Notes under the pieces: model-generated
The model's database searches: none
The model's input: only the letters and a program-made list of their open reading frames with translations
Told to the model about the DNA's origin: nothing
Shown here: in pieces, positions 6,195 to 48,466 of the stretch
Numbering within the stretch: the first letter of the stretch is position 1
How the letters are laid out: every line of letters begins with the position of its first letter
Made by a program: the position numbers and the translations under genes
From: Auricularia sp. M13
Taxonomy: Eukaryota; Basidiomycota; Agaricomycetes; Auriculariales; Auriculariaceae
Direction of reading: 5' to 3'
NCBI GenBank assembly: GCA_037042915.1
Contig: CM073193.1
Span: 248,001-312,000 of the forward strand
DNA length: 64,000 nt

Positions 6195-8542
6195 TTATTT
6201 GAGATCTCTGTTCAATAATCGAGTAACGTTCCGTGCCTGGCTCGAATAAGTACATGGCGAGCCTTCGAACAGTTCAACAGTGACGAGCCGGATACCCTTC
6301 GCGCCGTCGACAACGCCCACTGCGCACGCCGGTCCCACATCCAGACCCGCTCGTGAGAAAGAGACGACCGCGAGCAAGCTCGGGTTGAGGTACCGGTAGA
6401 GCGTCGTCTTGTTCGCCAGCACGCGGCCAATGGACACCGAAGGCTCGTGCGGGCGGCGCACGAGGTACGGGTCGCGCATGGGCGTCTTGAAGAGCAGCAC
6501 GCCGAACAGCGCGGTGAAGCCCTTAGTGTACACTTGCTCGCCCGTCAGCGCGTAGAAGTGGTAGGCCAACGTTTCTGAGGGTTCCTAAGACCGCGATAAG
6601 TATTGTAGTAGCACAGCCCTTCGAGAAGAACGTACGCCAGGCATGTGATGGTGCGCAAGAGTGACGACCTCGGGCTCGCTCGTCTCCACTGCCGTGCGGA
6701 GAACATGAATCTTGACGGGCTCGATGGTACTTACTACTACGCGCGTCCATTCCGAACAGCTTCGTCCAGATCACTGCGCCAGTGGTCGAGTCGAGCACGA
6801 AGACCTTGCCAGAGCGCGAAGATAATGACTTTTCGGAAGCCAAACGGATCCCGCCAGAGGTCACCGGGCTTGGCGGCGTTCAGGGTGTACGAGTTCGATA
6901 GGAACCGCCGCGACCACTCGAACGCGTAAGTCGGCAGGTTTTTCAGGTTGGCGATGTGGCGAACGAGTCGCGGCACGAAGCCTTCAGACCCAGCGGTCGC
7001 ACCGGCAACGACGGCCTTGCGTTCTGGAAGGTCGACGAACTCGACGGCGGCGAGGTTACCCAGCGCTTCTTCGCGGTTCCAGACCATCTTCTCCTGCTGC
7101 CAGAGCTGAAGGGAGCCGGTGCTGGCGACGAGCAACGTACGCGAAACGACGACGCCGTGTTGAGGGTTGTCTGCGTCTATGTCGCCGCGTACGATGATGC
7201 CGTGCGCAATGGTGTCAAAATGAAGCCCGTGCCGTGAATCTGGCCGCCGTCCTTGTCGCCGTGCGCAGTCAAGACGTGCGTTGCGCCTACAGCGGGCTGG
7301 TGCGTCCAGAATGTTCGCAAGACGTACGGCTTGCCCTGGCGGTCCAGCGTGCCCGAGAACGTCGACTCGGAGTATTCGCTGGGCGCTGTCTTGCTCACAG
7401 GGAACTCCCATGCGGGCACAATCTTGCGCGACGGCACGTCCAGGCGGATAATCTGGGCGCTGCCATCGGGGCGGATGCCGACCACGATATCGGAGAGCTC
7501 CAGGTTGACGTCGAGCACGCGGTCGTACTTGGCCGTCGCGGGCTTTCCGGACAGTTCGCGGTTGAGCTCGAAGTACGCCGCGTTGCCTCCTTCTACCCAG
7601 ACCATGAATGGGTTCTCGACCGTTTTGGCGGATACGGCGACCAGCGAGTCCTGCGTGTCCGTGATGTCCGACGGTACGTCAGCGCTGGCCAATTCGGTGC
7701 CGGTCTGCGTGTCGAGCACAACAACGTGCAGAGTGTAAGACCGGATTTGACAAGGCCAACCGCGTATACCGCTGTCGAGCTGACTACGAGCTTGGTGTAG
7801 ATAACGAACTGACTGGGCATAAGCAGGCAATCAAACGTTCATACGACTGCTTACCTCTGGTCCTGCGATTCCCAGCGCCATGTCTTCAACCCAGATAGTC
7901 CATTGACATGAGTGACCGAGCGGCCGTTGGTAAGGACGAAGATGTCCGGGGACTCAAGCGCGTATTGGATGTCATTAGACAGCGTGACGGGTTCTGTCAG
8001 AAACGCGTCTTATGGTTTGGGTAATTGGGTTTCGAATGTTAACAGGCCACTCGTAGCCTCGAAGACGCGCAGGTTGGCACCACCGGGGCCGGATAATACG
8101 GCCACAGCGACGGGTCCGCGAGGGTCCAAATCAGCTTCAGCTTTGGGCTCGCCGCGTCCGTACAATGCAATGACTGCATGACGATTAGAAATATGCCTTG
8201 AAAGCGCGCGTTGGGAATTACCATCGTCGTTAGTTTTCATATTTACAATCGCATCGCCAGCTAAGAACTGTCTGCGCCATACTGTCAGTCCGTCAGCTTC
8301 AGCACTATCCAGCGAGGCATATTGCTCACCAAGCGCTCCATCGGCTGGATTTATACCAGCAAGAATGTTGGCCTCAGTGGCCGTCAGAACGACGCTCTTC
8401 CAGGTCTGGCCGTGTCTGTACGGAGGCACGCGATGGAAAATTGGCACAAAAAGTGCCCCGGAGAGCGGTATGCCGATTTGCTGCTTGTGCCAGTCGACCT
8501 TGCCAGCGTCCTCCGCGTGTAGGGCGAGCGCACCGTGCCCTA
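6195..8542 (-). pseudogene. EMC1: EMC1, ER membrane protein complex subunit 1, main part (split by a transposon, 3' part lost)
   Basis: Translated minus strand from 8542: GALALHAEDAGKVDWHK.QIG, KSVVLTATEANILAGINP, LRVFEATSGLLTFE (N-terminal beta-propeller), then LDTQTGTELASADVPS, LWQQEKMVWNREEALG, ERKAVVAG, DPFGFRKVIIF, GKVFVLDSTTGAVIWTKLFG and finally TTLYRYLNPSLLAVVS from the C-terminal DUF1620 region. This order matches EMC1, the luminal scaffold of the ER membrane insertase complex. Several introns are still recognisable. Two kinds of damage are visible. About 90 residues expected before TTLYRYLNP are missing, and the rest of DUF1620 with the C-terminal membrane helix is absent after VVDGAKG. 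The start codon and signal peptide are separated from this part by the 39.9-kb insertion. A functional EMC1 would have to lie elsewhere. Confidence 0.85.
8540..8542. repeat. Target-site duplication, left copy (CTA)
   Basis: CTA directly precedes the left terminal repeat and is repeated directly after the right one (48424-48426). Counting CTA once, the EMC1 exon reads continuously in frame across the insertion point. Confidence 0.75.
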
Positions 8543-8594
8543 CACCGCGGGCAAAGGTCATGATAGTATGGGTGCATACTATCACTGTGATAGT
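8543..8594 (+). repeat. Left terminal inverted repeat of the giant element
   Basis: This 52-bp unit contains its own palindromes (TGATAGTA facing TACTATCA). Its partner is 48372-48423 on the opposite strand. Confidence 0.8.
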
Positions 8595-8781
8595 TTTGAT
8601 CGGCCAGTTTTCCATTGTGCCACCCAGTGGGGATCGGCATTGTTCTGACGCTCCGTACAGTTAGTTACATGGGCGCCTCTGTCAGACTCCGGGCCATCGG
8701 AAGGAGGCGTCGGAAGACCACTGCGAGGACCAGTATGGGGAGAGATAACTAGAAAGAGGAGGCAGCAATATCGCGGCCCCT

Positions 8782-9010
8782 TGTGGACAAAAGCCCGTCT
8801 TAAGCATTTAAGTTAAATTTCCGACAATTTCATTTTTCCTTCCATTCAGGGCCGCAATTCCTGCACATTTTCCTGCATTGCGTCTGTTCCTGCGCTGATT
8901 CCTGCGTTTCTTCCCGCGTACATCACAAACTTGCCTCCGGACCATAGTTTAGAGATAATGTGATTCCCGCGACTCTTCCCGCGACTCATTCCCGCAATGA
9001 TTCCTGTGGG
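8782..9010 (+). repeat. Left subterminal block: TGTGGACAAAAGC plus about nine TTCCYGC-type motifs
   Basis: TGTGGACAAAAGC lies at 8782-8794, followed by a run of TTCCTGC and TTCCCGC motifs (~8840-9010) and the shared word TTGCCTCCGGAC. The same features in the same order occur in reverse complement at 47785-48132. Clustered short motifs next to the ends are known transposase-binding arrays in CACTA elements; that role is inferred here. Confidence 0.75.
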
Positions 9011-9170
9011 TCATTATCATTAAACCTCGCTCGCCCTTCTGTTCCTGGCTCCTCATCAACCCGGCGTTAAGTACCTCGCTGCACTGGATCACGCCGCAGT
9101 CGTGCTCCTTATCGTCATACCCTCATCACCCACGACCGCCGCAATCTGTGACCTTGCCTTGCGCCCGCCT

Positions 9171-9540
9171 ATGGATCCGTCACTTGCCTTCGACTCGCTC
9201 GTGGCCGAGCACAATCGGCTGGTGACTGACGTCCGCGACTATCTACAACGCCGCGTTCTTCACGACCCTGCTGCCCTCACCGCCCGTGTTCATAGCCTCT
9301 CAACTCGCGCAGAGCAGGTATCTATGCGTGCACGTCGGATTGTCTGATTTCCTGACGCCCTGCCCTCAGCGCCACCTCGTTTTCCCTGCTTCAGAGTTTG
9401 AGCGGCTTCGGCTGAGCTGCAGCGAAATGTTACGCTGCATTCCCGTGCTGTCGCAAGACCATCATCCGATACGCGGCGCAGCGCACCCCGTATGTCCATG
9501 TCCCTTCTCATTGGTCAGCCCCGACTGAACCTCATTGTCC
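9171..9540 (+). pseudogene. N-terminal fragment of a second integrase-core gene
   Basis: The ATG at 9171 opens MDPSLAFDSLVAEHNRLVTDVRDY, the paralogue of the start of the complete gene at 10085. An intron-like break follows STRAEQ, joining to FPASEFERLRLSCSEML, which matches FPAGELARLRLSCASM of the complete copy. Similarity ends near 9455 and no catalytic domain follows. It looks like a tandem, truncated paralogue 900 bp upstream of the complete gene. Confidence 0.6.
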
Positions 9541-10084: not shown

Positions 10085-11886
10085 ATGGATCCAGCCCAAC
10101 TTCTCGAGATATTCTTTCGGGAGCACCAGCTGTTATCCCATGACGTCCGCACCTATATTCACACTCGGATAGATCACACCACAGAGGCTCAGACCAGTTC
10201 CATGCGCGACCGTGTGCTTCAACTGCACACCCGTGCAGAATCTGTTAGTATCGCAAGAGTATTGGAGGTACCCAGCTTTCTGACCTCATCCGTTCTGCTC
10301 CATACAGCGTCAGGATATTTTCCCAGCCGGCGAGCTCGCCAGGCTCCGTCTCAGCTGCGCCAGTATGGTTGATGCGCTCGACTCTTACGCCAAGGATCAG
10401 CGCGACCCGCCTGTCGTTGTTCCTCATACAGTTCTGACCCATGTACCCACCGGTGGCCGGCCACGCAAGCATATAGATGAGCAGTGGTTGGCCACTGCGT
10501 CTCATTTCCGCGGGCCAAAAGGAATTGCCGAATACCTCCCTAATGTCCATCCGCGCACCGTCCGCCGTGCCCAGCTGCGCGCTGGCATCCGCTCTCCCCA
10601 CCCTCCTGTCATGCACTATTACCCCGACCGCCCCCCTGAGCGCAACGTGCAGTCTGTCTCACGCCGGCCAGCCGACGCACTACCTACGGAGACGCTCGAC
10701 GCGCATGTTGCACGTCTCATGAATCAATTCCAGAATCACGGCCGATCCCTCATGGAGGGACAGGTTCTTTCCCTCGGTCTGGCTCTAGGCACAGAGGTCA
10801 CTCGAGCCCAGATTTCGGCATCCATGCGTCGTGTCACTGGTATTCCTGGGCAGTTTGGCCGTCGCCCCATTGTTCCTCGGAAATATCGCGTCGCTGGCCC
10901 GGGTTCCCTCTGGCATCATGACGGCCAGCACGGTCAGTATTTTATCCTTGTCTGTTTCGGTCGGATACTGACTACTTTCTCACAAAGGCCTCATCCATTG
11001 GAAGCTTGTCACCCATGCGTTCGTCGACGGCTACTCTCGGCGCGTCATGGCCCTTCACACCAGCAACAACAACCGCGCAACAACTGTGCTTAAGCTGTTC
11101 CTCGATGCCACACACGTTTGGGGGTTTCCCAGTCGTGTTCGTGGTGACCATGGTGTCGAGAATCTGCTGGTCGCTGCGGTGCAGGAGCAGATTCGTGGTC
11201 CTAACCGCGGCTCATACATCTGGGGTCCCAGTACCGACAACACGCGCATTGAGCGCATGTGGGTGGACATCGTCGTTGGCTACGTCAATAAATGGAAGAT
11301 CTTTTTCCTTGACCTCGAGGCCAACCATGGCCTCCACCGCAACAACGAGACTCACATATGGCTCCTTCATTTTCTCTTTCTCGACTCCATCAACGACGAC
11401 GGCATTGCTTGGGCTGCTGGCTGGAACGAGCACCACTTCACCCACCTCCCTCCCCACCAGCACACCCGCGGCAGCCACCTGCCTTCACCCAATGAACTTT
11501 ACTTCTTTGGTGAATACGTCAACGGTGTCCGTACTCTCCAACTTGACGATGACATCCTTGACGACAACGCCATTGCCCAGTATGGCGTGGGTGCTGATGA
11601 CGACGACCCCACCATCCGTCGTTTTCAGCATGTCGTTCCCCAAGAGCCTGAGCAGGCTCCTCCTCCCGACATACTTCCGGACGACCGCCACCCTAACGGC
11701 TGGGGCCGTCCTCGCCGCATGTTTGAAGTGCGTGTGCCGCCCCCAGCACCTCCCCTGGACGTCAACCTGATCATGGCTCTTCGTGACCATCTAACCACCA
11801 CTGTCGACCTCGCTGCCGAAACCATGCCGCTGCGCCGCCTTTGGTGGACAACCGCTCTCGAATTTATTTCGACTCGCCCGACGTGA
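10085..11886 (+). CDS. DDE integrase-core (rve-like) protein
   Basis: Three exons (10085-10243, 10308-10932, 10988-11886) joined by GT-AG introns give about 560 residues without a break. The N-terminal ~75 residues form a helical region (MDPAQLLEIFFREHQLL). A middle part resembles helix-turn-helix regions of integrase-like proteins (GPKGIAEYLPNVHPRTVRRAQL). The RNase H-like integrase core carries the acidic triad: Asp in WHHDGQHG (split by intron 2), Asp in RGDHGVEN, and Glu in NTRIERMW. The C-terminal ~150 residues are Asp- and Pro-rich. The core matches the integrase-core family seen in basidiomycete and animal genomes rather than a retroelement pol, since no protease or reverse transcriptase is nearby. 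Possible role: DNA joining for this or another element; a domesticated function cannot be excluded. Confidence 0.75.
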
Positions 11887-13490: not shown

Positions 13491-13870
13491 ATCCCTAGAC
13501 TAAGACATGTATCTGCGGCGGGCCTTGCCGTCGCAGATAGTTACTGCCTTATGTGTCCACTCCACACCCAACGCAACGCCGCATCAGTGTGCCCAACGTC
13601 CTCCTTCCTCTTGGATATGCCACTGTACACACAGTCCTTGCAACATTTGGCTTCCATGCCACTATACAGACAGCATAGCTGTGATCACAGATATGCTGTC
13701 CAGTTCTCGGCACTGATTCTCATGCCTCTCCGTCTGACCTGACCTCTCAAAATCTTCTGCTGTGTCCATAATCTTCCCTCCCTCTTAAATCTTGGTTTTC
13801 GAGTACTCACAATCAGAAAAGTACATCCAAATTGCCTATCCTATTTTCCACTTGCACCCGCGCCCCACTT
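13491..13870. other. Spacer, no recognisable gene
   Basis: Pyrimidine-rich on the plus strand. It probably holds the 3' UTR of the minus-strand gene ending at 13871. Confidence 0.3.
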
Positions 13871-15957
13871 TCATTGCAGCATGTCCCCAAATCTACGATA
13901 GCTGCAACAGCTAAAGCCCGGATCACCTATCTTCTCTTCCGGTGCACAGGTCTCCAAGATGCATGCAACACGCGTACTCTTAATGGCCGCTCGAGCGTCC
14001 TTGATCGCTCGCAGCAGATGTTCGCAGAGATCCACAGCGCTCAATGTAGATCCTCCCACCAGCTCCCTCATGCGTTCCAGTTGCTGTTGGGTCGTTTTGG
14101 TCAGCAACTTGGCTCAAGCTCACCAGCGCGAGCGAGTGACTCACAACTGCATTCCAGACTGGGTTGCGCGCCGACAACAGATTGGCTGGTTGCATGCCAT
14201 AGTCGCGACCGTCACGTGGAAGACAATTCACCTTCAGCCGCCAGACTGTCGCTCCATAACCCATACCCACGCGGTCGATGCAGAATTTCTCCGTCATCAG
14301 GTTATTCGCGCCGCGCGCGCACTGAGTCTCGGCATATGCCCACGCCGCCGCAAGGTTTTTTTGCACATGGGAGCAGGCGGTGGTGGGCGAGGTCCTCGCA
14401 GCATAGGCCAAAGCCAGACAAGCCTCAAAGTTTGTCCACCAGCGAGGCGCCGAGTCGTCGTTCGAGCAGGGCTGAGGATGCACGAGGGCGAGCAGATATT
14501 CGGCCCAGCGGCGTGATGCGGCACCATCCAATCCCCCTTGCGGCCTAAACAGAGGTGATACCATCGCCGCGCATGCCGCCCGACGCACCATCTGGTGTAG
14601 TCCGCGGTGCTCATGTCGGGCAATGTGCTCTGCCGGTGGAAGCCCTGCAAAGATCGCAGCCACGAGCCCACGCACGCTGTCGGTCTCGGCCTTGCAGAAC
14701 AGCAGGACACGCAGCACACCGAGCATATGGAGTGATAGCTGTGTCCCCTTGACCTGCGCGACTGCCAGTGAGCCCGGAACGACTGGCCCCTGTGATATGT
14801 TCTCCGCCGTAGCTTGAAGTGCAGCGGTGATTTGCTTGGGGCGGTAAGCATGCTGCTTGGAGCTATAGTTGCGCACCAGCTCACCCGAATCTGCCCTCTA
14901 TTCGCTCGCAGTAGATGCTCCGCCGTTGCCTGCATCACCCATCCAAAGCACGTCCAGTGCATGCGGGTGCCCCGCGCGCATGTATACAGGGCCGTCTCAA
15001 GCGCGGTGTAGTCCAGATGTTCTGGAGCAGGATGAATGTCGAAAGCCACCACCCATGCTCGGGTTCCACCACATGGGGCGCTCGTCCACCATTTCATCAC
15101 CGTCTTGAATGCCCGTGCATGCTGATTGGCCTCCGTGCGCTGCAGCATCCGGGCCGCCTCTGCTAATATGTCCGTTAAGTTGATGAGCGTTTGGCGTTGG
15201 CGCTGAGATCCCATCTGTGCGTTGCCGTGCCGCGTTGCGCGTTCTGCCCTCAAAGAAATTAACCACTGGCAAAAGACACACATCGCCAATTTCACTGACC
15301 TAGACCCTTGTCCGCGATGGCAGCCAACTGAGCTGCCTGTGATGCGGCCGAGTAGGGCATGTCGAAGTATGTGCGCTCGCCATCACCAGCCGGGCGCGTG
15401 CGCGTTCCCCAAGCCAGCTCATCCTCAATCATAGACAGCAACCCGCCCGCCGTCACAAGGTCGTCGCAGCTGGTTCCAAGGCAGGCAATTACATAGGCGC
15501 GCAGCGTCGCGGCGATGGTGTCCGGAATGCGCGCGCGCGGAGATTTGTAGCGCTCCACCATTTTCTGCGGCAGTGACCATTAGATGCCTTCCACCAACTG
15601 GTACGCTCAGTGCTGTCTTACTGTGATCAGAGCGCCGACCGTGTCCAGACTCCAGAGCGACCGCACACTGAAGATGTGCCGTCGCAGCTCCCTCTCCAGA
15701 TGCACGAGTTGCCAGGGCCGCAACACGCCGGTGCGTATTCCGAGCATGAACGTATGCTGGATGATATCGATTGGCAGCTTCCGTGGCGTCGTCACTATGC
15801 TCATGACTGTATGAGAGCAGCGCGACTTCAAGTGGGAAAGAAGAAAGGAAAGTGTGACGCCGCGTACCACGGCTATCTCCGGACCTCTCGCAGCTGGTTT
15901 GCGGTAATGATTCTTAATCAGTGTAATTAATATGACTTCAACAGATTCATTGGACAT
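13871..15957 (-). CDS. Unrecognised multi-exon protein (about 550 residues)
   Basis: ATG at 15957-15955 (MSNESVE). Coding runs through ERELRRHIFSVRSLWSLDTV, a GT-AG intron (~15625-15570), KMVERYKSPRARIPDTIAATL, an acidic Gly-rich stretch, RQTLINLTDILAEAARMLQR, then helical sequence such as HMLGVLRVLLFCKAE, RRWAEYLLALVHPQPC and NFEACLALAYAARTSP. It ends with QQQLERMRELVGGS and DLCEHLLRAIKDARAAIKS. The protein looks globular and mostly helical; no known domain was recognised. It is co-oriented with the exonuclease gene just upstream (gap ~90 bp), so the two may be expressed together. Internal exon borders are approximate. Confidence 0.5.
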
Positions 15958-16045
15958 CCGTCGACACGACCACCATTTTGCGCCGAGTCAACATAACTGT
16001 ATTGGAAATCAGACAAGGAAGTATTTCTCGGGCTTGTGACACATG

Positions 16046-17440
16046 CTAGTCCTCAAGCAGCGCGTGGACGGCATCCATTGTCCACTGAAAAAAATGTGTG
16101 GTCAGTACCAATGGGTCATCCAAGAGCATAGCAAACCTTGGCGTCATTTCCCGCATTGTGCCAATGCACGGGGTTCGCGTCGATGTCGAGGATGGACAGC
16201 ATCTCAATCAGCGAGATGCGGTTGTTGACGGGGGACCTTGTGCCTGATTTCCCAGCAAATAGAACTTGTGTGTCCATGTAGGCGACAAACCCGCGTGGGA
16301 GAGGCAGGTGCGCCTCGATTGGCATGTCTGAGGCCGCGGGCAGAACCCCGAGGCCGTCGAGAAGATACCTGTGCCTGCGCGTGGGTACGTATATTGCACT
16401 CATCATGAAGGACTCACCTGCGCTCCATTCGATCATCGTGGCAGGAGATATAAAGTGGGCCACTTGTCACCGCCGCGTTGATCTTGCCAGACAATTCCGC
16501 GATCACGTGCCCGAGTGATGTAACCACCGACGCACCATACGCAAATGCTGGGAAACTGTCCTTGCGGTGGGGTTTGTCGCGCCACAACTCATTATCCTTG
16601 ATGATGAAGTGTTGGTAGGACTTTGCGTCGCTGGAAAGAGCATGCACGGCGACGCCAATCTCGGTAATGCGCGTGGGATCCGCACGTGAGACCTCGATAT
16701 CGAGCGTGATCCATGTTCCACTCGCTGAAATATAGCAGGCGCGGGCATTCATATACACCTGGCGGGCGCGTAGAATCCCGTCCGCCGCGGCTGAGACGAT
16801 GGGTGCAGTCGTGACGGGGGCCGGGACGAGCTGAGGAGCAGATGTTGGGTTCACCTGCTGGCCACCGCGGGCGCGGTTCACCTGACAGTTTGGGACAGTC
16901 AGTTGACACATCCCACAGCTGGTCTCAACTTACGCGCTTCAGGTCGGCGAGCTCGGCCACCGTGCGGTAGACCCGCACAGTTGGCTGTCCCTGGATAGTC
17001 CTCTCGCCGGCTACATCAACTCCGTACGGTGCGACGTCCGCGTGAAGCGCGATTGTCGGCGTGATGACGCCCGGGAAGCCTGCTTTGGCCGCAGCTATCA
17101 TTGTGACAATTTGCTCGTGCTTGAAGAACATCCTCGTCAGACCGTCGCCGCGTAGCCCTAATGCTCATGTCAGTCTCAATAGAATGCCAGTCCGCCGATG
17201 TTGCGCACCTTCGTACAACACGATCCCATTCTCGCCCGCCGACCACAACGGGTGTTGCTCAAGCTGAGAGTCATTGGCCGCTGTGATATCGGCAGCCTTG
17301 GGATTCAACGCGCGCAGATAACTTCTCAGGACGTCCATTGCCGGGTTCGGCGTTGGAGGCGTCACCTCGAATGCGGTGAAGAGCACCTGCGTAAGCAGGT
17401 AGAATGCGCCGGAGTCGGGCTGCTCCGCAGGGGTAGTCAT
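16046..17440 (-). CDS. DEDDh exonuclease, Gfd2/YDR514C-like (RNase H fold)
   Basis: ATG at 17440-17438 (MTTPAEQPDSG). Exons joined by GT-AG introns give YEG|LRGDGLTRMFFKHEQIV, RMERR|YLLDGLGVL and GNDAK|WTMDAVHALLED, with the stop at 16048-16046. The catalytic domain begins at WITLDIEVSR (first Asp and Glu of DEDDh) and continues with IGVAVH, a conserved HDDRMERRYL (Asp), YMDTQVL and HWHNAGNDAK (His and last Asp). The order and HNAGNDA match the Gfd2/YDR514C-like family of fungal RNase H-fold nucleases. All five acidic/His positions appear present, so activity is plausible. An N-terminal ~180-residue region is unassigned. The gene is divergent from the RPA-like gene starting 156 bp away, so they share a promoter region. 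Confidence 0.7.
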
Positions 17441-17595
17441 CTGCCGTCAATGGGAGAGGCACTTGCAACAGCCGTGAGAGGGGCGCGTACTTTATATGCA
17501 TTGCGCGTGATCGGGCGCATGGCCGACCGGCCAGCCAAGGGAAGCGGCGCATGAGTATAAGAAGGGGCGATAACCTGTGCAACAGCTATCTGATC
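17441..17595. promoter_or_regulatory. Divergent promoter between exonuclease and RPA-like genes
   Basis: This 155-bp gap separates the two divergent start codons (17440 minus, 17596 plus). It contains ATATAAAGTA on the minus-strand side (~17490-17500), a possible TATA element for the exonuclease gene. Confidence 0.45.
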
Positions 17596-18319: not shown

Positions 18320-18349
18320 GGCCTGTACTTGCGACGTGTACATGTATGT

Positions 18350-30599: not shown

Positions 30600-31690
<1,091 letters not shown>

Positions 31691-37625: not shown

Positions 37626-37812
37626 GACCGGCCGATGCCGACCAGGTGAAATTAGAAGAAAATCGGACAAGAATTCGGGGCCCATTTCGCAAGGAAAACT
37701 ACGGCCTGGGAAATGTGAATAAGTCTGTAGGGAACATATTCGCATGTTAAGCCAAGTCTTTGGAGGTGAGGTGCACAAGGGAAATAGGTTGCAAGTTAGA
37801 CATGGAGGATTG
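37626..37812 (-). repeat. Diverged copy of the nested element's terminal repeat (right outer)
   Basis: Opposite in orientation to 21549-21710 and clearly related to 32589-32899 (GGACAATCC tip, TTGCAACCTATTTCCC, CTTGCGAAATGGGCCCC, GGCCGGTC) but with many differences, so older. Confidence 0.6.
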
Positions 37813-38155
37813 TCCGACTGCACATCAACCAGGGCTTCAAAGCTGGAAACAGAGACTGCATGTATGAATGTTAATTCTAAATTGCTACGTAGGCCATGAC
37901 AAGCTGATTGCACTCTATGGAAAGGATGAGACACTGTCGAACATCAAGCTTGCTTCTTTGTGGTCGAACACAGGGTCCATCCGCTCTCGCTCAATGCGGG
38001 CCTGGAAGGCACAGCAGTCGGCGCTGCGTACGCCGGGCGGCAAGGCGCGGCACAGGGAACAGGTTGGAAGATGGAGATAGACGCCAGAGGGAGACTCCGT
38101 CACCTGGCCCACATGCCAGAGCGAAAGTTCGGGAGGGATGGACGGGGCGAGGTGG
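37813..38155. other. Spacer downstream of the first F-box gene
   Basis: No gene recognised. Likely 3' UTR of the minus-strand F-box gene. Confidence 0.3.
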
Positions 38156-39496
38156 TCAAAAGCAAAGAGATGGATGACTTGCGCGTGCTGAGGAGGTACA
38201 AGATATGGTTGTGGAGATCCCATCCGCGGTTATGGTGGACGACGCGAAATGTAGAACTCGAAGGCAGCGCAGATGAGTGAGAAGGTACTGGAGGGGAAGA
38301 AGGAGGGTATAAAGGTCGACGGAGGACAATATCAATCCTGCAAATGGGCCGACACCACTGAGAGATGTGCGCAGATCGTCCGGTTGGCTGAAATGCTGAT
38401 TTTGCTGCAGAAGACGCGACTGATTCTCGAGATGCTGACAATCGGAGGTGGAGAGCAGCACTGACGATGGGTGGAAATCGAGGCGTGTGATGCGTGAGAG
38501 CTCGGCGATGGCGAGGATTGCAGCGGCGTCGAGATGTACTGAAAGAAGGGAAAGACTCGTGACGGATGCTGACCAATGCGCCATCGCGCACGCCATGGAG
38601 GCGGTCAAAGAGGTAAAGCGGCGAAAATCTCCATTGCCGATGCGAAGATGGTGCAGTTGTCGTTCGTCCTCGATATAGAGAGTGGAGAGGGAGGTAGAGG
38701 TGGACCAGGTGGAGGGGTCAATGAGGCACAAGACCTGGACGGTGAGGCGCAAGGATTTGATAGATTGTGGTATGGAGAGAAGCATGTCGTGTTGTGTGGC
38801 GCAGACAATACCGCCGCCAATTCGCAGAGAGAGACTCTCTAGATTGACCATGGAAGCGATGCACCTGATTTCGGACAGCCATAGCGGGCGGTCCGCGCGG
38901 AAGTCATGGGCGACAAAAAGGTAGAGGTCGAGATGGCGGAGAGTTGGGATGGAGCAGAGTTCTTGCAGGTGTCTCAAGGAGGATGAAAAGGCAAGCCAGG
39001 GAGTGAGAGGCAGAGATTGGGGGATAGGTCGGATTACAATTGTGGCGGACGCGAGGCGGGGAAAACTGAGTGAAAGCATGAAGAACGTGGGTCGCATCTC
39101 GGAGTATTCGCAGAGAACGCGCACGCGCGTGGTATAGTCGAAGACGGTTTCGGCACCGCGCGCCCGCATGTCAGAGGAAAAATGTTGCAGAATGTACATT
39201 CTGGGACCGTGCAGGCGGAGGGAGGAGAATGCGCGCCCGATGGCGAGTTGTCGTGCGTGTCGACACACAGCGACAAATGACTGCAGCAGGCGCTGGCGAC
39301 CGTATCGGGTGGGCTCGGCTGAGAGAACTTCAATCCATAGCTCCGGAGGCTACATAAGGTGAGTAGTGAGTCAATGAAGAGAGGCGGGCAGGAAACGCAC
39401 AAGGTAGAGGATAGGGCAAGGCAACTTGTAAGATGGGCTACAGGACGGCCGCTCTGCAGCGTCGAATGAGGTAGAGTCTGCGAGACGCTCGAGCAT
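38156..39496 (-). CDS. F-box / leucine-rich-repeat-like protein (copy 1)
   Basis: ATG at 39496-39494 (MLERLADSTSFDAAE). Exon 1 ends at CPILYL, a short GT-AG intron follows, and exon 2 opens with PPELWIEVLSAEP and FVAVCRHARQLAIGRAF, the F-box pattern (PPElw..il, then a C-R..r.la). The rest has repeated Leu-rich units (LRHLQELCSIPTLRHLDLYL; MVNLESLSLRIGG; SIKSLRLTVQVL; SVTSLSLLSVHLDAAAI; LRCLRVLHFASS). About 415 residues. Known role of the family: substrate receptor of SCF ubiquitin ligases. Agaricomycetes have hundreds. It is followed head-to-tail by a second F-box gene with the same intron position. Confidence 0.65.
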
Positions 39497-39644
39497 CGCA
39501 CGCTGCAAACAGGTCAAGACAGGGGGACAAGCGTGAGCGACGGTGGTCTAGGTTTGTAATGGCAAAGGGTTGATTACGGCATATTTTAGCCATCGTTGAT
39601 GACCTGCGGGAGTGATATGGAGATGACAACGTTCACAGGCTAGC

Positions 39645-41207
39645 CTAGATGGGTAACATACAGGAATGACAGGCACGGCGAAGCTCGCACAGACAAGAGG
39701 GATGTACGGGACTGGCACGGTCGTCAGCGTAGGTACAAGGGCAGTCAGATGCGATGTGAATATGGGGGCAGTGAGGGGAACCATGTGGGCCAAGCTGGAT
39801 AAGACGCAATGTCGGAGATAAAATAGAGAGTTGTCGGACGATGCCACCGGAAGGAGCGTCATCTCCAGCGCGGATCGGGACGACCCAGTGCGCAGCACCA
39901 AGATGCATAACACGAAGGCGTATCAGTCCGGCGAGACATATTTTGAGGAGGCGCAGCAGTTGCGCGGCAACACCTGGTAAGATAGTGTATGTGTCATGTG
40001 GAGAGTACACCGCATGGAGAGGAATGAAGCGTGGGCCACGGGTGTCCGAATGGGGCGGGGCGTCGGGAGTGCCTGGAACAGCGGGGGGGCAATCCCTGAG
40101 ATCGAGCGCGTCGGGATGGAGGTCGAGATGCAGCAGATAGCGGAGCTGAGATATGGCGACCGCGGCTTGCAGGTCGAAACGAATGCTGGCCAAGTGAAGG
40201 ACGAGCAGGGTATCACACCATGCAGGGACAGCATCCATGAGTGCGTGGGAAAGCTGATGTGGTGATAAATGAGGCGGTGACGAGGTGGTGTCGGCGTCAA
40301 TGCGGAGACGGAGTAGCTGCTGATGCTGGCTCCAGTTGCTGGGATTGATAATGGCGAAATCCGAGGCGCTGATTCGCAGTTCATGTAGGACGTGGTCGGC
40401 AGGAAGGAATATCAATGGACGCAGGTCGAGCGCGTCGGCGTAATCATGTATGTGGAAATGAGGATGGAAGTGCAGGTGGCGGCAGGAGGGCGAAAGCGCC
40501 AGAGGCTGCCACGTCGGCATAGTACGCAGCAACGCCGGACCTCCTGTCATGGTGCTCGCGGTGGGCGGCGAGAAGGAAATGCCGAGTGACTTGAGCCGCA
40601 GACCAAGTGGGGTGCGCAGGAATATGTTAAGATCGCTGAGAGCCGAGGAATATTGTTGCCATACGGCGACGGCATTCAGTTGGCGTAAAATGACAAAAAG
40701 AAAGAGATGTTGCAGTGCTGGCATATGCTTGGGAAGGAGAAAGAGATGATCCAACATGAATGTGGGAGGGGAAATAGGTAAGTGAAGCGTCGAGGTGAAG
40801 AGAAACGGCGGCGGCAAGGGGGATGTCGTCAGGAATGCGTGTGCGACGAAGATGGATTGAAAAGGTTCGACACTAAAATGCACATGAGAATACAGACGAG
40901 AAATGCAGATGTTGTGAAGTGTTAAGCATGCAGTGGCGAGCGGTAGAAGGGCAAGATGTTCGCATTTTGCCCGAGCAGCAGACGAGACGACCAGTTCGCC
41001 AGGATCGAATTGATCAAGACATTCGGCTGACAGCACGTCCAAGATGCGATTCCAGACGGACAAAGGCTGAAATGAGAGAATAGACGAGAATAGACGCGAT
41101 AATGCAGGAAGAGTATGGAAAATCGGTGAGCGGAAATTGGTGAGCGAAAGCGAGGAGCAGTGGCTACGCACCAGGATCAGAGACGGTGTGAGGATCCTGC
41201 GGCGCAT
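39645..41207 (-). CDS. F-box / leucine-rich-repeat-like protein (copy 2)
   Basis: Starts with MRRRILTPSLIL (41207), then a ~102-bp GT-AG intron, and PLSVWNRILDVLSAECLDQF with LPLATACLTLHNICISRLYS, a recognisable F-box. Leu-rich units follow (MPALQHLFLFVIL; LGLRLKSLGISFSP; CRHLHFHPHFHIHDYADAL; LLHLDLHPDALDLR; LIRLRVMHLGAAH; LRLIQLGPHG). It has the same architecture and the same first-intron placement as the gene 150 bp downstream, though the sequences have diverged. About 485 residues after splicing, no break seen. Confidence 0.65.
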   Translation of the reverse strand: MRRRILTPSLILVRSHCSSLSLTNFRSPIFHTLPALSRLFSSILSFQPLSVWNRILDVLSAECLDQFDPGELVVSSAARAKCEHLALLPLATACLTLHNICISRLYSHVHFSVEPFQSIFVAHAFLTTSPLPPPFLFTSTLHLPISPPTFMLDHLFLLPKHMPALQHLFLFVILRQLNAVAVWQQYSSALSDLNIFLRTPLGLRLKSLGISFSPPTASTMTGGPALLRTMPTWQPLALSPSCRHLHFHPHFHIHDYADALDLRPLIFLPADHVLHELRISASDFAIINPSNWSQHQQLLRLRIDADTTSSPPHLSPHQLSHALMDAVPAWCDTLLVLHLASIRFDLQAAVAISQLRYLLHLDLHPDALDLRDCPPAVPGTPDAPPHSDTRGPRFIPLHAVYSPHDTYTILPGVAAQLLRLLKICLAGLIRLRVMHLGAAHWVVPIRAGDDAPSGGIVRQLSILSPTLRLIQLGPHGSPHCPHIHIASDCPCTYADDRASPVHPSCLCELRRACHSCMLPI

Positions 41208-41863
41208 GGATGATGGATTTGGTTGACTGGGTATGAGGCAGAGAGAGGTGGGCGGGAATTAAAAAGCAGTGCTGTTTTGTTTGTGTAAAGGGCACTTGAG
41301 CAAATGAGCATGCATTGAAAGGGCAGGCTCGGACAACAACGGACAGGTGAACCAATGGGTGACTATGTGCGTTCAGCGGGATTTCGGGGACACAAACTGA
41401 TGACGAGCAGGAACGGTCCGCAATTGCGGGGCCAAACAATGCAAGTTTGTTACACAACTGTCTCTTGTGGCACAACTTTCTGCTGGAACAGCGACAAGAG
41501 CCCAAGTGGTAAGCGCGTGGAGATTGAATGGTGCGGATGGTGCACTGAAACAATGGCAGGAACATACAATAGATTGGAATGCAACGTGAAAAGGGCGAAC
41601 CGACGAAGCATGGTCGAGGAGAGGTATGTCTGTCCGGGCATCGGTACTAATGGCGAGCAAATGATTAACTGGTTTCAGGAATGGGACATGTTCGGCAGCT
41701 CAAGAGGCACGCGGCCATACTCACCGGGCATACGGCATGTAAAGCGAGCACGCAGGCACGAGGATAGCTTTGGCGAGCACCGCGGCGGGGTATGCACAGT
41801 TAAAACTGCGTGCATTGGTCAATCTGAGGATGGACCGGCTAGGAGCATATCGGTACGGACAGA
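41208..41863. promoter_or_regulatory. Divergent upstream region between F-box copy 2 and the gene at 41864
   Basis: 650 bp between opposite start codons. No gene recognised. Confidence 0.3.
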
Positions 41864-43272
41864 ATGCTCAGTCACGACGAAGAGCGACACACGTGGTACG
41901 AGCATGAGGACGCGGTCAATCGGAAAGAGAACACCGCCGCAGAGGATAAGCTGCGCGTGAGCATTGAGGAGCTAATAGAGCTCGTGGTGAGCGCAGAAGG
42001 GATGGACGGGACTGCACAGGTGAGTGGATAACCAAGGTGCAGCTGGAATGGGAGGGACTGACAGCGTGTAACTTTATAGGTTGCACGCCGACGCGAGCTG
42101 ATGGACAAGTATGTGACGTGGGACAGTCGACGGGTGGTGCAGGAAATTGGCAACGTAAAGCTTTTGGCATCGACAGACGGTGATGCCTACTTCGACTACT
42201 TTGACCCAGACCGCGGCGCATACGACCAGATGGAGTTCATTGCAAAATCGACCGAGGCGGCAAAAATGGGTCGGGTTCAGCACGCAGAACAACTCGCGCC
42301 ACCCAACTTCGAGCGGCCAGCGCACTTCATATGGACGGTGTGGGAGTACCAGACTCCGATTCCACTGGGTCGCCACGGCCAGCCATTCCTGAAGGGCTCA
42401 GCGTGGGAAGACTTCAATCCTATGCGACTGTGGCAGGCTGTCGAAGGCGGAAAGGTCGACGCTGGAGACCCATTATGGGTCAGACTGGCGCACGACGCGG
42501 TCCGACTACCGTTCGAGTTCAGAAGCCAGGCGCAGCGCATCGTGGTCAGCGAGGCTCACCAAATGAAGCTTGATGGAAAGCTGGTGCTGCCGCTGGACGG
42601 CGACGTGGCAGAAGTCGATGTTTGGCACCAGTGCGTGAACAATGCACTTTACATGCCACTGGCGGTGCGCAGGCAGTACACTTTCGAGGGCGGGAGGGGC
42701 ACACTGTACCGCGAGTGGGATGCAGGGGATGTGGGCATATATGTGGTGATGCGAGCATGTGGACCGGACGGGGAGAAAAAGAGGGATCGGGAGCGAAGAA
42801 AGAAAGCGATGGAGCCGGGAGAAGCGTGGCTGCTAACTGGACTGACTTGTTCAGGAGGGCAGTGGTGTGGGGCGGAGCACACGACGATGTACGCCCGGCA
42901 CCGGACGAGGCATTCTGCCGGCCTCAGCGATATGTGGGCGGTGAGGATGCAGAGGCGATCTTCAAACATCTGATGCGCTGCGGCTTTGCGAGGGAGAGGA
43001 TGGAAAGAGGCGGAGACGTGCACGAGTATGTTGTGCGGGCGGAGCGCCTGGACAGGGAATTTCAGGAAATGAAGAGAAAGCTGGACAAGGAGGAGGGAGG
43101 CATGGACGTCGTTGCGCGGGCAAAGTGCATGATGGAATTGGGCGGTGCTAGGATAGGCGAGGGGCGACCGGTGGTGCGATGCAAAGTCAGGGATAGGGAC
43201 CCGCTGGGACGGGAATTAAAGGCAGAGCTGACACGGCGCCTGGGAGCGAAGAGCGGAGCAGACAGCATGTAG
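41864..43272 (+). CDS. Unrecognised three-exon protein
   Basis: ATG at 41864 (MLSHDEERHTWYEHEDAVN). Exon 1 ends at GMDGTAQ, a GT-AG intron follows, and exon 2 begins VARRRELMDKYVTWDSRRVV. It continues with DGDAYFDYFDPDRGAYDQ, HFIWTVWEYQTPIPLGRHG and WEDFNPMRLWQAVEGG. A last intron near 42740-42855 leads to RAVVWGGAHDDVRP and a charged helical end (LDREFQEMKRKLDKEEGG; GRELKAELTRRLGAKSG), stop at 43272. About 430 residues with an Asp/Tyr/Trp-rich middle. No known domain was recognised, though the exon structure argues for a functional gene. Confidence 0.5.
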
Positions 43273-43346
43273 ACAGTCGACAGTCGACGATATAATATTG
43301 GCTCTAAATAAACAGAACTGCGGGCGTATGTGAGAAAGAACATGGG

Positions 43347-46300
43347 TTAAAGAGCGGTATATTCTCCTGATGCAACGAGCTGGCCGTGAAGAAAAGAATC
43401 AAACGGAGTATCGACGGCGGACGTGCTTGGTTCCAGGAGGGCCATGGACCTTGCCACCAAGGCGCGAAGTGCATCGTTGACGGTGATGGTGACGGAGCGG
43501 GAGCAAGTTGCAAATTTGAAGGGCCGGGCGTCTTCCGCGTGTGAGCGAGCGGCTGGCTGACCAGAGGAGGAAAGATGGACCTGGCGATTCGGAAATATAA
43601 GCACAGGTGCACCGGCAGTGCAATGACGAGGATAGACCAACCTCGAGATGATAGTCAAGATCCCCTGGTGAGGCTGGAGAAAGGAAGGGGGCACCGCACA
43701 TGGCAGTAACAAAGAGCGCAGCACGGAAGCCATGGTCGTGGGGTCGAAACGCGCCCGGGTCAAGTATGGAGACGAGGGGCGCAGGATGGCCACGGCCGTG
43801 GAGATAGTGTCGAAGCAAGGTCATTATGTCGTCAGCGAGGGCCCGGAGACCGCTGCCACCTGGGGTATTGATGCGCAGACGTGGGATGACGTCTTGCACG
43901 TCGGGCAGGGGGCAGCAGAGACCGATAACCAAGTGCTTGAGTGCCGAGATAGTCGCAGACTGCGTCAATGGTCCCTGGAAGTCGTAAATAATCTGACAAA
44001 AGATGTGAGCATGAGCAGTGATAAAGTACGACACGCGTACACGGGAGAGTGTGTTGTCAGGGGATGGACTGCTCCCAAAGGAAAGATCGAGGTTGAAGCC
44101 GTCAAAGAATGCATCCCATTCAGGAGGGTCGGCCAGACGAGAGAGGTTCACGCCGAACAGGGTGTGGGTGAAGAGGGCGGGACCAAGTGCCTGGTGTTGC
44201 TGCGGTGTACGCGGCGTTCTAGCAGGTGAAAGACGACGTCAGCGGGGCAAGGAACCAAGAAAAGATGAGTCGAAAATGCTCACGGGATTGACAGACAGTT
44301 CGAGAAGGTGCTCGGTCAATATGGCAGCATGGGGCGACGAGTCGGAGGACGGAAGGGGTTGATTGCTGTGCTCAGGCCAGAGCTTCAGGATAGGGCAACA
44401 GTCAGCGGCGGCGATGGAAAGAAATGGGATGTCGATGAGATGTTCGAGCAGAGCCGGGTCTTTAAAGTTAACATGGAGGTATCTCTGGCAAAGGAGGAGG
44501 AAAAGGAATGCAGGGTCTACGAAAGGGATGTAGCCTAGACGAAGCAGCGACCACGCCGCGGCGAGACCGCAGGCGCGCAGGGTGTCCTTCTCGGTGTCGG
44601 TGGGATCCACCCAAATGCTCTTCAGTGGCGTGTAGTAGTGCCCGCGCTTGCGCCAGATGCTGTGCTGGGAGACAAAGGACTGGATGCACTGCGATATAGC
44701 CGTGCGCTCGGGACCTGGTCCAATGCCACGCCCGCTGGAACACAATGAGCGAGGAGACAGAGCCAAACAAGAAAAGACACACATGCGGAATGAGTTGAAC
44801 TTGCCGCAGACGAGCAACTTGATGTTCATGTTGCTGCAGGAGATGCCTGTAGAGCCGAAGGCATCTTGAAGGCGTTTGGTAAGGTAGCTGTCGAGCGGAC
44901 GCATCGGCGCAGAGAGGAGCCGAACGAGTTGGGCGATGACGTCACCGAGTTTAACTTGATCGTCGGCCACGTCGAATTTGAACTCGGCGTTAACATCGCG
45001 GGTGAGGTTCACAGCTTTCACGGCCTGCTTAAGGTGGTTGCGGAGCGCGAGATGGTAAACTGGCCAATCGACGTAGGTTGTTGCAGCGGTGGATATGGTC
45101 AGAGTTATCCGAAGAATGGTCCTCGTCCTCCGAATCGCTGATGACGATGGGTGCTTGCTCTTGTGCGACGGCGACGGCACGAGGAGGAGTTGGTGATAAG
45201 TCCACGTGGAGGTTGGGTGTTGAATTCACAGGATTCTGGTTGGATTAATGGGTCAATGTAAGCCAATAGTCAGCACTGTATGCGCGAGCACGTACCTCCA
45301 AATGCGACTCAAGTTGGTGGAGAAAGCGGTCAGCGCGCGTGGAGGGGTGGACAGGTGTTGCCGGCACACTGGTGGTCCGCGCGGCGACGGGGACGGGGTA
45401 GGTTCAGCAGTAAATGCGTCAACTCGGGAATGTGCTGGGCTTGCAGCCATGAGTGAATGAGTAAGTTGAACATTGGGAGACCAATGGTGAATGGGCGTAA
45501 CGGCGCGCGAGCGTTGCAAAACAGGAGAAGTGGGCTGCGCGGTCCATGGTTGATCATCAAAGGAGGGTTCCTCCGAGAAACGCCAGGGTTGGTGGTCAAC
45601 GTGCATGGGAGACTGTGGCTGGCAGGTACAGCAGGTTGTGAGAGTGTGCGTTTGCGGAAAATGGGAGCTACATACCCGTTCGGGGGATGCGCCGCCCTCG
45701 GGAACATGGAACGCGGAGCAGATGCTGTTGCAGCGGCCGTTGATGATCTCGGGCTGAGAGGATGAGAGGTCGCCGTAGTAGTCGACGGCGCGTATGGTGA
45801 AGCAGTAATGAGCGAGCGTCGAGAGGGGGATGGCAACATCGGATGGTGCATTCAATAGAGGGCTGTGAACAGGGCCTCGGAGAAACCAGTGAGATTCGGC
45901 GGGACCTGCAAACGAAGGGTAAGCATGGTGGCACAAAAGGATGGATGTGGAAATTGCGACGTACAGACGTATACGTGGTGGCTTTGAGCAATGCTGGCGG
46001 ATGGCCGTGTGATGTTAGAGAGCGCAAAGGATTCCGCAATCACGTCGTTGCGGACAAAGTGAACCGCGGAGTCGTTATTACGGGACGCAGTACCGCCTTC
46101 TCCGGGGTTGACAGATCTTGACTTAGCCTTGGCAGGGACCTTGCGTGGCACGAGTAAGCGGAATGAGGAAAGCCCGGGAGGTAGAGAGGAGTTGGAATCA
46201 TGAAGGATAAAGCCGCCGCGTGTAAGATGCGACGAGACGGCAGATAGGATAGTTTCATATAAGCGAGGCGGTGCGAGGTCCGAGGGTTTGAGGTCAAGGT

Positions 46301-47449
46301 GTGCGACAAGGCCGAGATGCCTCATGCGCTCAAGAAGTGCAGGATAGCGGTGGGGGTCGAGGCGAAGCCGGTTGAAACCTTGAGGCAGTTGCAGCGCCTC
46401 CAGTGTGGGGAACGACGCCGGCGAGATGAACGGTACAGAAGGCTATGAAAAGAAGGGAGATAAGTTGGGTGAGGGGACGTAGGATGAGATGAAGAAGAGC
46501 GTACGTCAAGTGGAAATATCAGAATTTCAGTCGAGAAATCCTTGGACTTGGGGGCGACCGCGGGACGGGCCGCCGAGCTGTATGGAGCAGCAGCAGCGCG
46601 TGCCACCGGCTGCGATGAGGATGATGCGACGGGTGCTTGGGACGATGTGGCGGTGGGGACGACGTTGCGAATGGGAAGAGGCGGGGCAACCCGAGATCCC
46701 ACATTCCCACGGGGTACGACACCGGAGGAAGGTCGGTGCCGCGTCGCGCTGAGAAGGCGTTGCTCATTGGCAGCAGTCGTGCTGGGAAGATCCGATGTGA
46801 ACAGCTCGACGCGGGAGTGAGACGATGCGGCGGCCAATTCGCGATCTCCAGGCGTGACGGACGGCAGTGGGTGGGAGGAGCTAGACGGTGTAGGAAAAGA
46901 AGATGGTCGAATAGCGGCTTGCGATGGGGCCGAGATGGCTGCGGCCGCGGGGCGTGGGGCTGCGGGATTGGGTGTCGCTGCGATGGATGGCTGAGCAGCA
47001 ATTGAAAACCTGGAGCACAGTGCGATCAGGAAAGCGAAGCTAGCTGGAGTACGACGCAACATACTCTCGGTGACTACCGAAGGGATGACCACAGCGGCAA
47101 ATGCAGAGAAAGAGGCGGCTGCCACGAGTAGCCTATGAAAGTGAGAAGGGTGAGAGAGGGTCCACATGGAAGAAAGAGAGAGGAGAAAGGAACACACCAG
47201 AATGAAGATGAGACAGTCGCATTGTTCTTCTGCACAGTGTGCCCTGGGAGGGATCGGGCCATGCTCGATGAGGGTATGATGACAGTTTTGGCAGTCATCA
47301 TAAGGTCCGGGCTGCTGGGGCTGCAAAGAAGGAGGTATGAGCAAGACGGGCAAGCGGCGGAGGCAAGGAGAGACGCGTACCTGAGAAGGATCTGCAGACC
47401 GCGCAAACCAGAAGTGCTGACACGGGCAGAAGACACAAAAGCGCGACAT
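43347..47449 (-). CDS. HECT-like ubiquitin ligase with N-terminal Cys cluster and SUMO-interacting motif
   Basis: Starts at 47449 (MSRFCVFCPCQHFWF). A Cys/His cluster follows (CQNCHHTLIEHG; CAEEQCDC), then a long Ser/Pro-rich linker (~46.95-46.5 kb), ILIFPLDV, LQLPQGFNRLRLDP (~46360), further exons, PIVISDSEDED (~45150, a classical SUMO-interacting motif) and a C-terminal part spread over 45.0-43.35 kb: IAQLVRLLSAPMRPLDSYL, LRACGLAAAWSLLRLGYIP, FDGFNLDLSFG, LVIGLCCPLPDVQDVIPRLR, LRHYLHGRGHP. It ends with FKFATCSRSVTITVNDALRA, where TC sits as the catalytic Cys of a HECT domain. The same architecture occurs in a HECT-like family common in mushroom genomes and often near transposons. At least seven introns; their exact limits are approximate. 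Confidence 0.55.
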
Positions 47450-47784
47450 CGTCGCCAAAGGGACGCTTGCTCAGCAGGCAGGGGCTGGATGTTGTCGGTG
47501 GAGAGGAGGGGAAAGGGATGCGAGGGGGAATTCCGAACGTGATGAACAAAGAGGACTTGGCTTATAGAAGAGTGTGTGCGCATGGTGCGACCGGTGGACT
47601 TGGCCCTGCGCGGGCAGAGCGAGTGGGAAGGTGGAATGCGAATCAATCAGTGGATCAATCAATGGTCACCAGCAAGTCAGGGTGTCATATGATGATGGAT
47701 GCATATCTTGGAGCAATCCTTGAATTGAAAGCTGCGGAAATGATGTGCGGATAGAGAGATAAGGACTGCTTGAGTTTAAATGTA

Positions 47785-48132
47785 AATCGGTCGCAGGAAG
47801 AAGCGCAGGAATGCGATGCAGGAACGATTTAACATTTTGTTTGTGTGAAGTGGATTTTGATTTTTGATTCAGATGGCACAGGAGCCGACTGCACGATAAA
47901 GCGCAGGAGGGACCGCGGGAATGAGCGCAGGAACTGACGATCACGGTTCCTGCGCATTTTTCGATGGTCCAGAACTGATTCCCGCAGGAATCCTGCAGGA
48001 ACGAATTATTCTGTGGTCGTCCGGAGGCAAATAGAGTGATTCCTGCAGTTATTCCTGTGATTTCGCAGGAATACACGCAGGAAGGGACGCGGGAATGACA
48101 AAGAGATTTAATATAAATAGCTTTTGTCCACA
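47785..48132 (-). repeat. Right subterminal block: GCAGGAA/GCGGGAA array plus GCTTTTGTCCACA
   Basis: Reverse-complement counterpart of 8782-9010. More than ten GCAGGAA or GCGGGAA motifs (47790-48100), the shared word GTCCGGAGGCAA (~48020), and GCTTTTGTCCACA at 48120-48132. Confidence 0.75.
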
Positions 48133-48371
48133 GGAGCCCGCCGTACAGCAAGTACTCAGCAAGTGTTGAGGAATGTCTCACCAGTATCTGCAACAAGATA
48201 TTGAAAGAAATTTAAGTCGTTGGACACCGGATGCTCACGAAAATACGACTGCTGCTTGGCCGAGATCGGAAGTTCGGCTGTGTGCCAGAGACCTCTCATG
48301 AATGCAGTTGCCCAGTCTTCCGCAGTCGGCCGTGGCACCCAGGTGGCACCATTCCCGAGAGCTTTACACCC
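48133..48371. other. Right subterminal stretch of the giant element
   Basis: A minus-strand frame (WVPRPTAEDWATAFMRGLWH, then YFREHPVSNDLNFFQYLV) stops near 48170. It shares only a short GTGCCACC word with the left end (~8625). It may be the remnant of an element gene. Confidence 0.35.
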
Positions 48372-48423
48372 ACTATTACAGTGATAGTACGGGTCGGTAC
48401 TATCATGGCTTTTGCCCGCGGTG
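48372..48423 (-). repeat. Right terminal inverted repeat of the giant element
   Basis: Inverted partner of 8543-8594; GTG tip at 48421-48423. Confidence 0.8.
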
Positions 48424-48466
48424 CTACGGCCAATATGGCCGGCAGCACGCGTGCGAGGACACGCAT
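48424..48466 (-). pseudogene. EMC1: EMC1 start codon and signal-peptide region, cut off by the insertion
   Basis: ATG at 48466-48464, then MRVLARVLPAILAV, broken at the CTA duplication (48424-48426). With the transposon and one CTA removed, the frame continues as GHGALALHAED at 8542. The second EMC1 fragment at 59434 confirms the natural order (MRRVLARVLPAMLAV then GNGALALHAED). Confidence 0.8.

Follow-up and report, generated by a model that had tools for sequence, protein, structure and literature searches.

Cut-and-paste transposons of eukaryotes are for the most part far shorter than 40 kb. This report concerns a 39,881-bp insertion bounded by terminal inverted repeats (TIRs) within a copy of EMC1 in the basidiomycete Auricularia sp. 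M13; it lies in a 64,000-nucleotide stretch of contig CM073193.1 (assembly GCA_037042915.1, positions 248,001 to 312,000), referred to below as the window. In the parts of the cited papers used here, fungal EnSpm transposons are described with CAC..GTG tips and a 3-bp target-site duplication (TSD), and they share with Plavaka and further relatives the motifs C(2)C and H(3-4)H between the catalytic residues (PMC12730594). Subterminal arrays are among the features described for CACTA elements (PMC8978399), and the largest EnSpm elements cited, those of the red alga Chondrus crispus, measure 16–20 kb and contain 4–5 open reading frames (ORFs) (PMC6431247). Plavaka termini are given as TGT..ACA or CATCA..TGATG (PMC12730594), and IS3EU elements, which are eukaryotic integrase-type transposons, have TA..TA ends and a 6-bp TSD (PMC10045372). 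Maize Helitrons reach up to 39 kb, and Polintons, which encode a retroviral-like integrase, are typically 15–25 kb and at most 40 kb long (PMC6431247). Starships, which an earlier note on this DNA named as the nearest concept and as elements of Pezizomycotina, are no longer limited to that group, as eight of them, 42–606 kb long, are reported from the basidiomycete Tremella fuciformis (PMC13066641).

The Auricularia locus contains a real, precisely bounded giant insertion whose family had been misassigned and whose interior may have grown in steps. The reading that we favour, with a confidence that falls a little short of even, is that of a giant TIR DNA transposon, now 39,881 bp long and of unplaced lineage, with a protein of the DDE (Asp-Asp-Glu) type, carrying an rva_4 integrase core, as its most likely transposase.

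Borders of the insertion and its empty site

The element extends from 8543 to 48423 and has precise borders on both sides, each marked by a CTA trinucleotide (Table 1). Its TIRs are 52 nt long and complementary at 43 positions, with the outermost 13 nt identical and with CAC at the tips; the tip of the element reads CACCG, not CACTA. The whole window was scanned for inverted arms separated by 500 bp or more, with nine exact nucleotides at the tip, matching 3-bp flanks and 40 or more identities out of 52. Only two matches were returned, the 8543/48423 pair and a position within a long internal inverted repeat, and 20 Markov-simulated windows contained no match even when 34 of 52 identities sufficed. 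Shorter arms of 20 nt (17/20) give seven matches in the real window, compared with 0–2 per simulated window; these are the element pair, two pairs of subterminal motifs, three matches in internal repeats and one other. No DNA similarity between the element and its flanks is found at an E-value of 0.01.

The EMC1 reading frame can be followed across the insertion. On the minus strand it reads MRVLARVLPAILAV from 48466 to the junction and then GHGALALHAEDAGKVDWHKQQIG from 8539 downwards, and it stays in frame when the element and one CTA are omitted. A natural empty site is provided by a degenerate relative of EMC1 outside the element, at 59,228–59,438, which matches the joined flanks (with one CTA) at 178 of 220 positions; none of the 12 gap positions falls at the junction, over which the relative reads RVLARVLPAMLAVGNGALALHAED before stops appear farther along. 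Because this paralogue aligns without a gap over the junction, the inserted DNA amounts to 39,881 bp plus one CTA. Further EMC1 fragments are found at 59,165–59,226 and 57,011–57,092.

The earlier note had proposed just such an insertion, 39.9 kb long, TIR-bounded and flanked by a 3-bp TSD, within the EMC1 exon that encodes the signal peptide, and on this the ends, the CTA copies (8540–8542 and 48424–48426) and the empty paralogue agree. The positions that it gave for the inverted, CAC-tipped ends hold to the nucleotide, its contention that such a signature is hard to obtain by chance is in keeping with the simulated windows, and its statement that EMC1 resumes in frame is upheld by both the reading frame and the paralogue alignment.

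The target itself seems to be a truncated paralogue without the C-terminal quarter of EMC1. The left EMC1 copy matches the Pfam family for the N-terminal EMC1 propeller with a score under the family cut-off, and its match to 6ww7_A, a 993-residue EMC1 chain that we take to be the human protein, is weak (E 2.4e-4) and ends at residue 767. The query used in that comparison stopped soon after the matching part, and the missing C-terminus rests on Pfam scans, in which the C-terminal EMC1 family was not found in the three minus-strand frames of 4600–8540. A kinase-like ORF lies beyond the EMC1 match (PF00069, 8.4e-5, under the cut-off). Since the copy is apparently truncated at its C-terminus, the insertion is not clearly into a working gene, and as judged from these matches the target probably was not one.

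Two other duplicated structures are seen in the neighbourhood of the degenerate EMC1 pieces. A 769-bp unit at 58389–59157, whose 242-nt inverted arms are 99% complementary, adjoins a degenerate EMC1 fragment and is perhaps similar to a miniature inverted-repeat transposable element, and a direct duplication of about 1 kb (55569–56616 and 59505–60543; 86–92% identical in pieces, with a spacing of 3.93 kb) lies in a region that contains such pieces.

Table 1. Features of the insertion, its target and its empty site, by position in the window.
Feature	Position	Strand	Basis or remark
EMC1 copy, rest of target (left side)	5872–8539	-	Pfam/sequence match; exon limits from our gene model
TSD, left copy, CTA	8540–8542		Sequence; single trinucleotide in the empty EMC1 paralogue
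Left TIR, starts CACCGCGGGCAAA...	8543–8594	+	Repeat search, TIR scan
Subterminal block TGTGGACAAAAGC	8782–8794	+	Other copy at 48120, minus strand
Left subterminal array, 8 TTCCYGCR, all inward	8858–8996	+	Motif scan
Subterminal block TTGCCTCCGGAC	8931–8942	+	Other copy at 48019, minus strand
Diverged second copy of transposase N-terminal exon, MDPSLAFDSLVAEHNRLVTDVRDYLQRR...	9171–9323	+	Sequence comparison
Candidate transposase gene, about 558 aa, rva_4 integrase core, D..D34E	10085–11886	+	PF24764, 1.5e-48; start codon and exon limits from our model
Possible nested insertion, 7,611 bp, perfect 12-bp inverted repeat GCTTCCATGCCA, CATTTG on both sides; encloses exonuclease gene	13650–21260		Scan with 6-bp duplications
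Large predicted gene, about 1,436 aa by our model, DEDDh (DnaQ-like) exonuclease domain in C-terminal half	15292–20503	-	PF21762, 1.7e-14
Internal repeat, one arm of 320-nt inverted repeat (92%, 200 nt identical)	22490–22796	+	Repeat search
Predicted gene, 670 aa	26744–29248	+	No Pfam family above cut-off
Fungal AROM gene fragments: 3-dehydroquinate synthase pieces and weak shikimate-kinase-like peptide out of order	31147–31896	-	Pfam, sequence match
Internal repeat, second arm	32581–32900	-	Repeat search
Third related copy of internal repeat (82–83%)	37626–37818	-	Repeat search
Two long ORFs, 397 and 537 aa	38159–41258	-	No Pfam family above cut-off; F-box/LRR-like by eye, unsupported by searches
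Long coding stretch facing inward from right end, limits uncertain	42000–47470	-	No Pfam family assigned
Right subterminal array, 10 TTCCYGCR inward and 3 outward	47792–48095	-	Motif scan
Right TIR	48372–48423	-	Repeat search, TIR scan
TSD, right copy, CTA	48424–48426		Sequence
EMC1 start, MRVLARVLPAILA and first base of next codon (target, right side)	48427–48466	-	Sequence, paralogue alignment
Degenerate EMC1 relative without insertion, natural empty site, outside element	59228–59438	-	Alignment with joined flanks

Kinship of the ends and the candidate transposase

The likeness of the two ends continues inward of the TIRs. The motif TTCCYGCR points inward in all 8 copies within the left 500 bp and in 10 of the 13 within the right 674 bp, whereas the rest of the element (38.7 kb) has 11 copies and the flanks have 7. 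Inward motifs that follow one another give 16 spacings, which measure exactly 12 bp in 8 cases and 11–13 bp in 11; the binding motifs of En/Spm are 12 bp long. Two blocks of 12–13 nt, TGTGGACAAAAGC and TTGCCTCCGGAC, are common to both ends and have no further exact copy in the window. As the ends share the TIR, both blocks and the inward arrays, we conclude that both are of one family.

Just inside the left end, 0.6–1.5 kb from the tip, begins the gene for the rva_4 protein, the only transposase-like family that Pfam recognises inside the element. Its first exon is present twice, as MDPSLAFDSLVAEHNRLVTDVRDYLQRR at 9171 and as MDPAQLLEIFFREHQLLSHDVRTYIHTR at 10085, and the intron modelled near 10,950 probably has other limits. 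Presuming that the catalytic residues follow the general pattern of such enzymes, the core has 34 residues from the second Asp (D2) to the Glu (E), with no C..C motif between them; PF00665 (rve) also matches this gene, under its cut-off. The interior was scanned with Pfam in three frames on each strand, with stops as X, over 8601–46800 on the plus strand and over 8543–36900 and 38000–47900 on the minus strand; the segments outside the scan are 46800–48423 (plus) and 36900–38000 and 47900–48423 (minus). In these frames no further family of transposases, reverse transcriptases or recombinases is found at E 0.05.

AlphaFold models of two single-ORF parts of the transposase have a mean predicted local distance difference test score (pLDDT) of 40.1 and 33.8, too low for use, and PDB sequence searches with its core and with the right-end protein reached an E-value of 0.39 at best. 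For relatives of the core, no stretch of a viral contig collection fitted any of the peptide patterns, and 13 pattern matches in prokaryotic genome contigs left none confirmed; the TIR pattern likewise had no match in the viral collection. Neither collection is fungal, and these negative results therefore say little about copy number.

The earlier note had assigned the element to CACTA/Plavaka. The CACTA part of this assignment stands as far as the ends are concerned, the CAC..GTG termini and the 3-bp TSD both being present, but not for the enzyme: the only DDE gene recognised has an rva_4 core, which lacks a C..C motif between D2 and E, where a CMC-type transposase has C(2)C and H(3-4)H, and no CACTA family is found in the frames scanned. 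Because the C..C motif is missing between D2 and E, the rva_4 gene is not of the EnSpm/Plavaka kind. The Plavaka part is not supported. PF18759 is detected only outside the element, at 49–53 kb, and the tips match neither of the Plavaka termini given in the part of PMC12730594 used here. That Plavaka-type transposase gene occupies 49244–52733 on the minus strand, upstream of the EMC1 start (PF18759 at 1e-23 on the spliced model, 2.9e-6 and 1.7e-6 in raw frames); lying beyond the right TSD, it was rejected as part of the element. Together with the style of the genes, the presence of this family fits a basidiomycete host.

Comparison with the described systems, as set out in the portions of the papers cited, shows partial likeness to each. 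Like CACTA/EnSpm (CMC) elements, the Auricularia insertion combines CAC..GTG tips, a 3-bp TSD and subterminal arrays at both ends with large size, extra ORFs and host gene fragments, whereas its CACCG tip and its rva_4 D..D34E core without C..C set it apart, and it is about twice as long as the Chondrus crispus EnSpm (PMC6431247). With IS3EU and GingerRoot it shares an integrase-related DDE enzyme, and fungal IS3EU elements are reported to carry passengers, namely TET/JBP and alpha-kinase genes (PMC10045372, PMC12730594). Plavaka elements are likewise DNA transposons of mushrooms and their relatives (PMC12730594), and a gene of this type lies in the window, but outside the element, and the termini differ. 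Starships resemble it as giant fungal elements with extra genes and with occupied and empty sites (PMC13066641); they have, however, a tyrosine-recombinase captain, whereas the present element has a DDE-type gene, and no such captain was found in the frames scanned, which leave out the segments next to the right end named above. Polintons (Mavericks) are similar in size and in their integrase-type DDE enzyme (PMC6431247), but the TSD here is 3 bp and no family B polymerase is found in the frames scanned. Among the matches listed from a search of open-licence literature (titles and abstract openings, a scope that excludes subscription papers and Repbase), none describes a basidiomycete TIR element of 40 kb that encodes a transposase of integrase type, which is weak evidence for novelty.

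Mobile unit or stepwise growth

In the explanation that we favour, the rva_4-type protein encoded just inside the left end would act as the transposase, and the TTCCYGCR arrays would be binding sites for this protein or for a partner. The two 52-nt ends would be paired and the element excised, and insertion with a 3-bp stagger would give rise to the CTA duplication, most of the length presumably moving as a single unit. The weak point of this explanation is the proposal that the rva_4 protein is the cognate transposase for these ends. The link is weak because the ends are CACTA-like, with CAC..GTG tips, a 3-bp TSD and subterminal repeats, and the published IS3EU relatives have TA..TA ends with a 6-bp TSD in the account cited. 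Features of the interior also weigh against the favoured explanation. The segment 13,650–21,260 looks like a nested insertion, without which (and without one of its flanking repeats) the element would be 32,264 bp long; the middle, from 21 to 38 kb, codes poorly and carries repeats; and 43,112–43,141 matches the left TIR at 22 of 30 positions in direct orientation, compared with at most 20 in 8 simulated windows, and is possibly a fossil end.

The explanations that compete with it overlap, and their probabilities need not sum to one. One of them is a giant CACTA/EnSpm transposon, non-autonomous or cryptically autonomous, with a CMC-type transposase that is encoded elsewhere or too diverged for recognition and with the rva_4 gene as a passenger. 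The tips and the 3-bp TSD fit fungal EnSpm as described in the cited part of PMC12730594, and the subterminal arrays fit as well; we nevertheless consider this unlikely, as the interior frames scanned contain no CACTA or Plavaka family at E 0.05 and the recognisable DDE gene is located at the left end. It is slightly more probable, if still doubtful on balance, that a much smaller element entered EMC1 and grew to 40 kb through later insertions and duplications, in which case the 40-kb form was never mobile as a unit. The possible nested insertion at 13,650–21,260 argues for such growth and implies that part of the 39.9 kb may have been added later, and the four related internal repeats (at 21.5, 22.5, 32.6 and 37.6 kb), the low coding density between 21 and 38 kb, the AROM fragments and the possible fossil TIR at 43,112 point in the same direction. 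The single nested candidate, however, covers just 7.6 of the 39.9 kb, the outer ends of the inverted pair 22,490/32,900 lack a duplication, and no retrotransposon family is found in the frames scanned.

Scans for nested elements also bear on the question of growth. Set to arms of 16 nt (13/16) and to duplications of 4, 5, 6 and 8 bp, they yielded 36, 1, 8 and 0 matches, of which 24, 1, 7 and 0 lie within long inverted repeats, compared with 3–10, 0–3, 0–1 and 0 in 20 simulated windows. Apart from the nested candidate and the matches inside long repeats, these numbers are near chance, which argues against growth in place. The sole 6-bp match outside the long inverted repeats is 13,650–21,260, and in a post hoc test 6 of 300 simulated element-length sequences contained a match as good (12-nt exact arm). 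The exonuclease gene lies within this stretch, as would be expected of a nested transposon. An assembly artefact, in which the ends of two different copies were joined through shared interior sequence, we regard as highly improbable. Internal repeats might mislead an assembler, but the same CTA stands at both junctions, the two sides hold complementary halves of one EMC1 exon, the paralogue confirms their pairing and the window contains no N. The matching CTA, the EMC1 halves and the paralogue thus secure the borders against an artefact, but not the length between them.

A broader proposal is that the element represents a new basidiomycete lineage in which an rva_4 D..D34E transposase acts on CACTA-like ends and moves 30–40 kb of genes and host fragments, as a DDE counterpart of the Starships. 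We put this forward only tentatively and consider it rather improbable at present; the larger claim, that giant cargo transposons driven by a DDE enzyme form a lineage, depends on the finding of further copies. If true, a precisely bounded 30–40-kb insertion with a DDE-type enzyme would mean that fungi can transport gene cargo by other means than tyrosine-recombinase Starships. The poor fit of an integrase-type enzyme to CACTA-like ends is open to direct test, and bears on how DDE superfamilies swap ends and enzymes.

Interior genes and neighbouring features

As the earlier note had held, the element carries extra genes, among them the exonuclease gene, the AROM fragments and several large predicted genes (Table 1). 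Gene models come from a simple predictor that uses dynamic programming and was trained on the window itself; the runs that it models on the minus strand at 23.4–33.0 kb and 37.5–54.2 kb are over-joined and do not represent genes. The DEDDh region of the exonuclease gene has no match at E 1 in a PDB sequence search. The 3-dehydroquinate synthase pieces at 31.1–31.7 kb (PF01761, 4.9e-13; PF24621, 2.3e-10) match fungal AROM proteins (best 3.1e-24) from about residue 179 to residue 315, and a peptide with weak likeness to shikimate kinase (about 31.8–31.9 kb, 7.2 bits) is found on the wrong side of these pieces. Given this partial coverage and the misplaced peptide, the pieces may be read as rearranged fragments captured from a host gene. 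A HECT-like identity is conceivable for the 42–45 kb region but is supported by no search. Pfam matches under their cut-offs were left unused (New_glue, Nitr_red_alph_N, LRR_6 and DUF6594, and Defensin_big in the right flank).

The four related internal repeats are 160–320 nt long (21549–21708, 22490–22796, 32581–32900 and 37626–37818); all are inside the element, and none occurs in the window flanks. The inverted pair at 22,490/32,900 was also considered as a nested TIR transposon and rejected, its outer ends showing no duplication.

The GC skew is 0.25–0.31 in all five 2-kb bins of 38001–48000, and every other bin of the window is at or below 0.14 on the positive side. The left flank contains, at 1786–3926 on the plus strand, a peptidase-like gene in which the activation domain of pro-kumamolisin is recognised (PF09286, 1.4e-38).

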